IMG/VR virus record: IMGVR_UViG_3300035670_000817
Coordinates: 1-33,131 of that record
Direction: 5' to 3' (one strand)
DNA: 33,131 nucleotides
DNA from: a virus
A program made the position numbers and the translations under genes. The notes below the pieces were generated by a model. The model ran no database searches and was not told where the DNA came from. It saw nothing but the letters and a program-made list of their open reading frames with translations. Position 1 is the first letter of the stretch; each line of letters opens with the position of its first letter. Shown here piece by piece: positions 29,453 to 32,583 of this stretch.

Positions 29453-29728
29453 TTAGTTCACCACCGTTTCATATAGAGTTTGAAATTGTTCGTTCACAGT
29501 TACTTCTTCATCAAAATTCTGCTTGTGATAAGTCTTAACCAAACGATTCACAAGTCGCTTCGGAAGTTCCAGCTTATCACAGACAGACTTCACTTCATCC
29601 TTAATCAAATCGCGTTCAGCGGAAATACGAGTCAAAGAATCGGAACAGGTGCGAAGAACTCGCATCAACATTTCCTTGTCCGCCGGATTTGTAATTTGAT
29701 TAATAACCATTTGTTGTGTTACTGACAT
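29453..29728 (-). CDS. dsbA: DsbA-like double-stranded DNA-binding protein
   Basis: A 91-residue helical protein. Residues about 27-75 (SDSLTRISAERDLIKDEVKS, VCDKLELPKRLVNRLVKTYH then KQNF) look like the T4 DsbA family, a small basic DNA-binding protein that in T4 lies next to gene 33 and binds late-promoter regions. The match is by pattern (LTRxxAERDxIKD, LPKxLVxxxxKTYHKQNF) and by position. AAGGAG lies 11 bases before the ATG. Alternative: an unrelated small helical DNA-binding protein. Confidence 0.65.
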   Translation of the reverse strand: MSVTQQMVINQITNPADKEMLMRVLRTCSDSLTRISAERDLIKDEVKSVCDKLELPKRLVNRLVKTYHKQNFDEEVTVNEQFQTLYETVVN

Positions 29729-30688: not shown

Positions 30689-31264
30689 TTAATCCCAGAG
30701 ATTGCGATAGTATTTACCGAAGAGTCGAAGGCCATTATCGATTCGATTCGAATGTTTTTCGTATCTGTCTTTGTCGAAGTGACGGCCATCTTCGGTATCA
30801 CAATCACTAAAAAATTGTTTTTCCCAGTCAGAATTCAATTGTTCGAAAGTCCAAATCATTTCATCAAGAATCCATTCCCAACGCTTGAACCAATTATCAT
30901 CTGTATCCCACTTATCGGCTTTGGGTGGTGCAGAAGTTGAACGAAGTTCTTCGGGAACATCATCGTCATCCGTGCCAGGAGCACCGTGTTTACTTTCTTT
31001 AAGCTGCTTGAGCATGGGAAGAACAATCATGGAAAGTGTTGAATCCATATTCCAAGTATCCCATCGGTCAATCTTCACATAGTCAATCTTCGGATGTACA
31101 AAGTCCATAACCTTCTGATAACAAAAACTGAACGGATAGATGACATTGTGCCAGAATTGAACCATCGGTTCATCATAATCAATGTCTCGCCAGAACACAA
31201 CCTTTTCAATGATTGTATATGGGCTGATCCAATGATAACGGTAATTTGAGATGTAAACTTTCAT
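30689..31264 (-). CDS. Conserved phage protein of unknown function
   Basis: A 191-residue acidic, tryptophan-rich protein. Regions that stand out are YRYHWISPYTIIEKVVFW, IDRWDTWNMDSTLSMIVLPM, LKQLKESKHGAPGTDDDDVP and WFKRWEWILDEMIWTFEQLN. The two central motifs (D-W-D-x-ST-L..P-LK-LK and RW..ILDEMIW-FE) occur in a widespread family of phage proteins of unknown function. GGTGA precedes the ATG, and the tmRNA coding piece ends just upstream. No catalytic motif or membrane segment was seen. Confidence 0.75.
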   Translation of the reverse strand: MKVYISNYRYHWISPYTIIEKVVFWRDIDYDEPMVQFWHNVIYPFSFCYQKVMDFVHPKIDYVKIDRWDTWNMDSTLSMIVLPMLKQLKESKHGAPGTDDDDVPEELRSTSAPPKADKWDTDDNWFKRWEWILDEMIWTFEQLNSDWEKQFFSDCDTEDGRHFDKDRYEKHSNRIDNGLRLFGKYYRNLWD

Positions 31265-31284
31265 TTCTTCACCATAATGAAAAG

Positions 31285-31483
31285 AAGTGAGACTGTTTCT
31301 GTTGCCAAGTACAGTCTCGAAACTCCGGTCTTACTGCTTAAGCAGCAAGAGCCAGTTCGTAATCGCTATCGTTTGCGTTTACATTTTTCGCTTCTTCGGT
31401 CGGGAAGTCCCAACCCTACGGCTTTCGCATTGCCGTGCTGTCCATCTTCCTATTCAACGCCCTGTCGAAACCTGTGCGACCCC
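31285..31483 (-). ncRNA. ssrA: tmRNA (ssrA) coding piece of a circularly permuted, two-piece tmRNA
   Basis: The RNA 5' end on the minus strand is GGGGTCG (31483-31477), followed by CACAGGTTTCGACAGGG, the tmRNA D-arm signature. The tag reading frame (31376-31338) is GCA AAC GAT AGC GAT TAC GAA CTG GCT CTT GCT GCT TAA, encoding ANDSDYELALAA and stop. The 5' strand GGGGTCG pairs fully with CGACTCC of the acceptor piece, with the third pair a G-U wobble as in alanine tRNAs. A hairpin (GGTTGGG-ACTT-CCCGACC, 31398-31415) precedes the tag; a palindrome spans the tag stop, and an 8-base-pair stem ends the RNA (31289-31318). The 3' boundary is approximate. tmRNA rescues stalled ribosomes and tags their products for proteolysis. 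Confidence 0.88.
31338..31376 (-). other. tmRNA tag-peptide reading frame (ANDSDYELALAA)
   Basis: Twelve codons from GCA to a TAA stop encode ANDSDYELALAA. As in other tags (for example ANDENYALAA in Escherichia coli) it begins AND and ends with small hydrophobics and Ala-Ala, the signal read by ClpXP-type proteases. The upstream bases GTAAAC before the resume codon also match tmRNA practice. Confidence 0.88.
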
Positions 31484-31665
31484 ATCGAAAATGCACGATA
31501 TGACTCTTCGAATCCTTCGTGATACAAAAATGCTTCTTCATTGTACCACAGACGCTTTGTATAATCTTTTATGATTCCTTCAAGGTCATCATCTTCAAAC
31601 TTTTTTAGATGACCTTTTACAAGGTAAAATAGTTCGTAAGCGTATTTGCGTCTTTGTTCGTCCAT
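31450..31665 (-). CDS. Small ORF nested in the intervening segment of the permuted tmRNA gene
   Basis: A 71-residue reading frame starting at ATG 31665 between the two tmRNA pieces. The sequence MDEQRRKYAYELFYLVKGHL, KKFEDDDLEGIIKDYTKRLW and YNEEAFLYHEGFEESYRAFS is protein-like, acidic and helical. The last 11 residues (GSHRFRQGVE and stop) read through the first 34 bases of the mature tmRNA coding piece, so processing of the 5' end would cut the message inside the frame. The Shine-Dalgarno is weak (AAAGTG). No family was recognised. It is either a real small gene or a protein-like spacer. Confidence 0.5.
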   Translation of the reverse strand: MDEQRRKYAYELFYLVKGHLKKFEDDDLEGIIKDYTKRLWYNEEAFLYHEGFEESYRAFSMGSHRFRQGVE

Positions 31666-31677
31666 ACAGTACACTTT

Positions 31678-31720
31678 TGGTGGAGTCGGTGGGAATCGAA
31701 CCCACGTCCAGAACACCTTT
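31678..31720 (-). ncRNA. ssrA: tmRNA acceptor piece (3' tRNA-like end with CCA) of the permuted tmRNA
   Basis: Minus-strand sequence GGAC, then T-stem GTGGG, loop TTCGATT, CCCAC, acceptor strand CGACTCC, discriminator A and encoded CCA (31680-31678) has the full form of a tmRNA 3' end. No anticodon arm lies 5' of it, so it is not a tRNA. It lies upstream of the coding piece in transcription order, which is the permuted gene arrangement, with about 194 bases between. The 5' end of this piece is not defined; a possible P2 half (GGTGTTCT) is included here and could extend into the end of the BFD-like gene. Confidence 0.85.
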
Positions 31721-31872
31721 CAGTCAACTTCATACAGCAATTCTTTATCTTTGTCAATAAACTGCAACTGACAAAGCCCGCAACAAAAATCATTTTCCAT
31801 GATGCGTTGTTTCAACTCTTCTTCAGACTCATATTCTGAAGATTTAATGTTTCTACAAACACAGACTATCAT
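31720..31872 (-). CDS. BFD-like [2Fe-2S] mini-ferredoxin
   Basis: A 50-residue protein, too short for most gene finders. It begins MIVCVCRNIKSSEYESEEEL and has the cysteine pattern C4-x-C6 then CC-GLC (30, 31, 34), as in the bacterioferritin-associated ferredoxin (BFD) domain CxC...CxxC, which binds a [2Fe-2S] cluster. Escherichia coli Bfd has 64 residues with a longer spacing between the cysteine pairs, so this is a shortened form. It lies immediately upstream of the tmRNA acceptor piece and just after the nuclease gene. No Shine-Dalgarno is visible; an ACTAAATA element lies 9 bases before the ATG. Role in the phage is unknown; iron-sulfur or bacterioferritin iron handling in the host is a guess. 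Confidence 0.6.
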   Translation of the reverse strand: MIVCVCRNIKSSEYESEEELKQRIMENDFCCGLCQLQFIDKDKELLYEVD

Positions 31873-31881
31873 ATAAGATAT

Positions 31882-31889
31882 TATTTAGT
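31882..31889 (-). promoter_or_regulatory. Candidate late-type promoter element ACTAAATA upstream of BFD-like gene and tmRNA
   Basis: The minus strand reads ACTAAATA overlapping the stop codon of the nuclease gene and just before the BFD-like ATG. It could start a transcript across the BFD-like gene and both tmRNA pieces. It is one of four identical octamers on this strand. Confidence 0.35.
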
Positions 31890-32583
31890 TTGTCAAGCGA
31901 TAATTTGAAATATACTGCTTCAATTGTGAAACATATAAGTGTTTATCTCTCACAAAAAATTGAGGATTTTCATCAGCGACAGCAATTGCAACGACAACTT
32001 GATTAACTGGCCGACCGGTTATTTCTTCAAACATCTCTGCATATGCGGTACATTGCATGAAGTAGTTCTGAATATAATCTTCATTCTTTTCTTTTGATGA
32101 AGTTTTGTAGTCAATGATTGAAAGTTCTCCATCCCATTCTGCAATGCAATCACAACGACCAGCGATTTGCAGAGTCTTAGAATATAGAGCCTGTTCTAAA
32201 CCATAAACATCTCCAATGCATTCATCAAGTTTTGGTTTGAGTTGCAAAAACAATTCTTTAGTGTCAGGCATTATACTCTGCATTTTCATAGGTGTCAACT
32301 CATTTCGCAGATAATCTTCACACATGAGATGCAGTTTAGTTCCACGATTTGCAGCTTTGCGCGATACACGATTGGCCTCTTCTTCACCAACTCTTTGGCG
32401 CCATTCGTAGATTGCTTTCTTATTGTAACTTGAAAGGACTGTCGTAATAGAAGGATACACCTCACCATTTGGTGCGGTGTATCTTCTACCTGATTCTGTT
32501 GTTACTGCGTTTAGTTCGAAGTCTAGTTCCGGTAATTTTACAAAACTAAATTTACATTTTGTATCGTCTTCGATTGTGTTCAT
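31885..32583 (-). CDS. PD-(D/E)XK (RecB-like/Cas4-like) exonuclease
   Basis: A 232-residue protein. The N-terminal part has GRRYTAPNGEVYPSITTVLS followed by KAIYEWRQRVGEEEANRVSR and GTKLHLMCEDYL, the start of phage RecB-family nucleases. The catalytic motif is GRCDCIAEWDGELSIIDYKT with the invariant D...DYK pattern and SSK following, and the C-terminus has YFMQCTAYAEMFEEITGRPV with QVVVAIA, the Q-x-x-x-Y motif. These nucleases process DNA ends in phage recombination or replication. It overlaps the upstream gene by 32 bases, so the start could be later, but no nearer in-frame ATG fits. Confidence 0.8.
   Translation of the reverse strand: MNTIEDDTKCKFSFVKLPELDFELNAVTTESGRRYTAPNGEVYPSITTVLSSYNKKAIYEWRQRVGEEEANRVSRKAANRGTKLHLMCEDYLRNELTPMKMQSIMPDTKELFLQLKPKLDECIGDVYGLEQALYSKTLQIAGRCDCIAEWDGELSIIDYKTSSKEKNEDYIQNYFMQCTAYAEMFEEITGRPVNQVVVAIAVADENPQFFVRDKHLYVSQLKQYISNYRLTN

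Follow-up and report, generated by a model that had tools for sequence, protein, structure and literature searches.

The window analysed here, a stretch of 33,131 nucleotides from the virus record IMGVR_UViG_3300035670_000817, carries on its minus strand a circularly permuted tmRNA gene whose intervening sequence (IVS) is, as judged from its conservation, occupied by a protein gene of 71 codons. We consider it likely that the spacer has been taken over by this small gene and that one transcript serves first as its mRNA, being cut afterwards to yield the tmRNA. The tmRNA, the nested gene and its conservation, the helix that joins the ends of the IVS, the overlap of the gene with the mature tmRNA and the recurrence of the arrangement in phages can all be read in the DNA; from these features we infer the single-transcript origin, the translation of the frame, the order of processing and any regulatory use.

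A permuted tmRNA in a T4-like neighbourhood

A previous sequence-only reading had proposed a two-piece tmRNA on the minus strand and had suggested ARAGORN and the Rfam covariance models as a check. Both called it: ARAGORN reported a single gene in the window, a permuted tmRNA (tmRNA*) at 31247-31770 with the tag ANDSDYELALAA, and the Rfam model tmRNA_permuted (RF04321) matched 31739-31338 minus over its full length (model positions 1-213) with 123.8 bits (gathering threshold 47, E 5e-24). The model alpha_tmRNA (RF01849) also matched, at 31787-31286 minus (64.0 bits, gathering threshold 50); despite this, the T-loop and 5' piece of the window read TTCGATT and GGTTTCGAC, as opposed to GCGGTAC and AGGATCGAC in the alpha type, and it is beta_tmRNA, instead of alpha, that matches the close relatives L002, L003 and L054. 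The complete permuted tmRNA spans about 31739-31286 minus and is made up as follows:

31678-31739, minus strand: 3' (acceptor) piece of the tmRNA, comprising the 5'-flank strand, the T-arm GTGGGTTCGATTCCCAC, CGACTCC, A and CCA (ARAGORN, and Rfam RF04321 from model position 1; 5' end predicted)
31484-31677, minus strand: IVS of 194 nt, predicted to be absent from the mature two-piece tmRNA (sequence, Rfam)
31286-31483, minus strand: 5' (coding) piece of the tmRNA, from GGGGTCG through the tag (ARAGORN, Rfam; the 3' limit is the end of the alpha_tmRNA match and is predicted)
31338-31376, minus strand: tag reading frame ANDSDYELALAA with its stop codon TAA (sequence, ARAGORN)

On this strand the acceptor piece comes first, its CCA ending at 31678, and the coding piece follows with GGGGTCG from 31483, so that the separation of about 194 bases noticed earlier is exactly 194 nt. 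The two acceptor strands, GGGGUCG and CGACUCC, pair at 7/7 positions with G3-U70, again as first read, and are followed by A and CCA (Ala-type); the tag codons occupy 31376-31341, the stop TAA 31340-31338, and the tag ends in ALAA. A second T-arm-like motif was not found near the coding piece, in agreement with the statement that no CCA end follows it; together with the permuted call of ARAGORN, this rules out a gene in one piece that ends in a further CCA. The window thus carries a phage-encoded, circularly permuted tmRNA that looks intact, its acceptor being of the Ala type and its tag normal. The tmRNA of L002 (4896-5451 of that record) has an unusually long ARAGORN tag, ANTSKFGTAKVSMGRGFRFGTRSAEAVAA, of 29 amino acids, and the tag of L090 is likewise of 29 amino acids.

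The tag, whose comparison had been proposed as a way to place the donor, gives no host, as the degenerate tag pattern found no exact match in the GTDB genome set. No exact match to the 5' piece was found in IMG/VR, and when the locus was compared with phage records by blastn, tRNA-domain matches alone were obtained, to phages of other hosts. SmpB was not found in the 33-kb window record or in seven related records, all of them fragments; therefore, host SmpB would be needed. The role proposed for the tmRNA, rescue of ribosomes on cleaved mRNAs or replacement of the host tmRNA, is plausible as a predicted function.

The assignment to a T4-like genome held, with genes for gp32, gp59, a late-transcription regulator and tail proteins nearby. 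A PD-(D/E)XK nuclease gene (31885-32583) lies upstream of the tmRNA, and the genes downstream of it include those for a transcriptional regulator of phages (29453-29728, Pfam Phage_DsbA) and for the helicase loader gp59. Elsewhere in the window, 996-2165 minus encodes a phage protein of RCC1 (regulator of chromosome condensation) repeats that adjoins tail-fibre-like genes. Two-piece tmRNAs of marine myophages, such as that of phage Melnitz, have been published; that work counts 53 two-piece forms among 133 unique phage tmRNA structures, 50 of the 53 being marine or aquatic (PMC9004378). Methylophilales phage Melnitz (MZ577097) and Pelagibacter phage Mosig (MT647606) resemble the window in having a permuted tmRNA in a T4-like phage and a similar neighbourhood, their tmRNAs being flanked by a PD-(D/E)XK nuclease and a late-transcription coactivator. 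A phage two-piece tmRNA is thus not new as a kind, and its genomic place is apparently known too. Unlike the window, Melnitz has an IVS of 142 nt in which lies an ORF without annotation, 54 amino acids long from its ATG and belonging to another family, and a glutamine riboswitch after the tmRNA (1687-1735); in Mosig, the match to the permuted model is only 215 nt long, so that its IVS must be short. The Melnitz ORF lies beneath the SsrA feature (L378:1334-1546), and the available text of the published analysis makes no mention of a gene nested in this tmRNA (PMC9004378).

What the sequence-only reading concluded overall, a phage-encoded permuted tmRNA in a T4-like genome, stands; it overlooked the nested protein gene and a nine-pair extension of the acceptor helix. 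The further features of the locus are these:

31450-31665, minus strand: nested protein gene, 71 amino acids and stop, MDEQRRKYAYELFYLVKGHL...FSMGSHRFRQGVE* (conserved phage family, dN/dS, shuffle test, three-helix model)
31450-31483, minus strand: overlap of the 3' end of the nested gene, stop included, with the mature 5' tmRNA piece, 34 bases (sequence)
31669-31677, minus strand: 5' strand of the extended acceptor helix, AAAGUGUAC, pairing at 9/9 positions (two G-U) with 31496-31488 (MFE fold, covariation)
31488-31496, minus strand: 3' strand of the extended acceptor helix, GUGCAUUUU, doubling as codons of the nested gene (folds, covariation)
31720-31872, minus strand: small upstream ORF, 50 amino acids with cysteines, MIVCVCRNIKSS...YEVD* (MIVCVCRN...), running into the 3' piece (sequence)

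The nested protein gene and its relatives

The gene, from ATG at 31665 (an alternative start is GTG at 31674) to the stop at 31452-31450, almost fills the 194-nt IVS. Single-sequence searches of IMG/VR retrieved 32 relatives and alignment searches 109, and the family alignment contains invariant K, R, W and F residues and an RLWYNEEA-like core. Over 69 codons shared with L002, the nearest nested homologue, pS is 0.56 and pN 0.15, giving a dN/dS of 0.16, and a shuffle test of the ORF returned p 0.003. AlphaFold models the protein as three helices (mean pLDDT 80) with a tail, encoded by tmRNA sequence, that is predicted to be disordered. Sequence and fold searches of Pfam, PHROGs, PDB and BFVD yielded no significant match, and tblastn against phage records no match. 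The ORF is short, belongs to no Pfam or PHROGs family and is preceded by no clear Shine-Dalgarno sequence, as a chance open frame might be; with more than a hundred relatives, the invariant motif, the low dN/dS and the shuffle result, a chance frame is scarcely credible and is refuted as far as sequence allows, because non-coding DNA would not be so conserved. The nested ORF is therefore, on this comparative evidence, a real gene. Its translation may be weak, given the lack of a clear Shine-Dalgarno and an AUG within a predicted helix.

Members of the family are nested in the IVS in six phages (the window, L002, L058, L109, L479 and L480); in at least six further phages (L003, L054, L005, L011, L032 and L090) the gene immediately precedes the tmRNA. 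The nested copies fall in two clades that lie apart, and each clade has upstream copies beside it, from which we conclude that the gene has entered (or left) the IVS on more than one occasion. In L054 the small upstream ORF is followed by the gene and then by the 3' piece, the IVS and the 5' piece; in the window the upstream ORF again stands first, but the gene comes between the 3' piece and the 5' piece. The family also occurs in records, many of them fragments, in which no tmRNA is present, and is thus not a tmRNA-dependent protein. In L007 (4234-4500) and L008 a family member appears to be cut short just before the 3' piece of the tmRNA and its frame continues into the tmRNA; this copy is possibly a decaying gene.

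The cysteine-containing upstream ORF has no Pfam or PHROGs family, and a similar ORF also precedes the non-nested copy in L054. As this ORF enters the 3' piece and the nested gene the 5' piece, both tmRNA pieces of the window are overlapped by protein frames. With regard to promoters, 100/231 phage permuted tmRNAs (e.g. L095 and L479) are preceded within about 110 nt by TATAAATA, the late promoter word of T4 type, as compared with 5/632 control windows and 1/104 bacterial genes; most loci with the word also have a -35-like element, early and late use being both possible. The word is absent upstream of the window tmRNA.

Intervening sequences in phages and bacteria

The complementarity between the IVS ends begins directly after CCA and stops four bases before GGGG, thereby extending the acceptor helix. 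It recurs widely, at least 8 pairs being formed in 88% of phage IVSs versus 20% when partners are swapped, and most of ten helix positions show several Watson-Crick pair types among phages and bacteria. Since it covaries in bacteria too, the helix was rejected as a phage invention. The precursors of the window and of L002 both folded in support of it: the minimum free energy fold of the 301-nt window precursor contains the acceptor and its extension, and pairs the AUG with C-terminal codons. Taken as a whole, the 301-nt fold has no unusual stability (z -1.0); a z of -5.3 was obtained for the stem when its loop was shortened.

Three DNA-pattern scans for 3' pieces, blind to reading frames, assembled 221 distinct phage permuted tmRNAs, most with a short IVS; 23 IVSs reach at least 130 nt, 21 after dereplication. 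An ORF covers at least 85% of the IVS in 14 of these 21 (13 with ATG starts) against 0.79 expected (P 7e-21), and in 9 of the 24 IVSs of 100-129 nt against 1.89 expected (P 3e-5), the expectations coming from dinucleotide shuffles and the P values taking dereplicated IVSs as independent. The 410-nt IVS of Phosso (L384) has no ORF filling it. The proteins fall in several unrelated groups, many of them short membrane-like or basic; a PHROGs search with ten of them gave no match, and several homologous pairs of nested genes have dN well below dS.

The permuted tmRNAs of Alphaproteobacteria (RF01849) and of the merged family RF04321 share with the window the 3' piece before the 5' piece, the tRNA-like domain, the tag frame and the helix closing the IVS. 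They differ in the spacer itself: the 108 alphaproteobacterial IVSs do not exceed 116 nt, and the longest bacterial spans inspected in a Pseudomonadota sample (398 genomes, 158 above the cut-off) are structured, none having its IVS filled by an ORF, a control that is strong for Alphaproteobacteria and weaker for beta and cyanobacterial genes. In the bacterial genomes G373 and G286, two permuted tmRNA genes occur in one genome, and one of the two has a longer IVS. From these comparisons, the nesting of protein genes in tmRNA spacers appears to define a class specific to phages. As far as the literature could be searched, no earlier description of a protein gene in a permuted tmRNA IVS was found. 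The nearest precedents are tmRNA genes interrupted by group I introns with homing-endonuclease genes and a permuted tmRNA with a tRNA-Ala in its IVS (PMC11915505); as in the window, a second gene lies inside a removed segment of the tmRNA gene. In those cases, however, the arrangement consists of a self-splicing intron in the T-loop or of a tRNA gene, whereas the window has an ordinary protein gene in a permuted IVS, and the 3' end of this gene is read from sequence of the tmRNA itself.

One RNA with two proposed uses

It is established that RNase P makes the 5' ends of tmRNAs and that permuted precursors are cut into two pieces (PMC3985003, PMC11915505). In the mechanism we favour, the precursor would fold into a tRNA-like acceptor domain, prolonged by the IVS-end helix, with the gene as its loop. 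As long as it is uncut, the transcript could be translated into the phage protein of 71 amino acids and three helices. Cleavage by RNase P before GGGG, together with processing after CCA, would afterwards set free the IVS and both pieces of the tmRNA. For the window, the RNase P cut would fall upstream of the stop codon of the nested gene, so that production of the full-length protein would end and a stop-less message would be left, which the tmRNA itself might clear. As for the reason for nesting, the most parsimonious is that the IVS gives a compact genome room for a gene in a stretch that is transcribed and can be discarded.

In the window (+34), L002, L058 (+13) and L479 (+13), the nested gene reaches its stop codon within the mature 5' piece, as do unrelated nested genes such as L030, L436, L476 and L437; the stops cluster at -1 (the UGA of UAUGAU before GGGG), at +12 to +14 (e.g. 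the UAG of GGGGGCGAAAUAG, with tails like VFMMGAK) and at -12. Other nested genes stop at -1 or 12-18 nt upstream of the cut, and thus a stop-less message is not general. A rule that nested stops fall in the mature piece was rejected, -1 and -12 stops being about as common.

The IVS may simply be a tolerated insertion site in a dense genome where genes are parked neutrally, with no functional tie to trans-translation and with an incidental overlap of stop and tmRNA; this rivals the regulatory reading of the architecture, not the architecture itself, and we give it somewhat better than even chances. It fits nested proteins that are mutually unrelated, many of them short membrane-like or basic, stops whose position depends on where the frame happens to provide one (-1, +13, -12) and the predicted disorder of the C-terminal tail that the window protein draws from tmRNA sequence. 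Two families found both nested and adjacent to the tmRNA may, on the other hand, hint at a placement that is not due to chance; these are the family of the window and that of the L189 nested protein, which resembles the gene adjoining the L058 tmRNA. Because about half of the nested genes stop before the cut, parking is favoured as the general cause.

The same half argues against a tighter coupling, in which the uncut RNA would be the message for the nested protein and the RNase P cut would produce both active tmRNA and a stop-less mRNA cleared by trans-translation, the two outputs being inverse. By analogy, such a switch might be likened to ArfA, which is repressed by trans-translation. The genes with a stop inside the mature piece and the pairing of the AUG with C-terminal codons in the predicted precursor speak for it, and we regard it as tentative and rather unlikely. 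Finally, it is improbable that the tmRNA is decayed or a decoy at a locus mainly expressing the small protein; some phage tmRNAs are defective inhibitors (DS6A, cited in PMC11915505), but here the diagnostic features, from the 7/7 acceptor with G3-U70 and CCA to the ALAA tag end and stop, are all intact.

The spacer of a split tmRNA is not mere waste, as phages repeatedly place protein genes there. The cultured phage Melnitz apparently has one such gene, hidden by its SsrA annotation, and genes are overlooked when tmRNA regions are masked in the annotation of phages. A compact RNA that would serve in turn as mRNA and as structural RNA would tie processing by RNase P to translation and trans-translation during infection, in a way that can be tested; if the switch were true, the output of the nested protein and the capacity for ribosome rescue would be set against each other.
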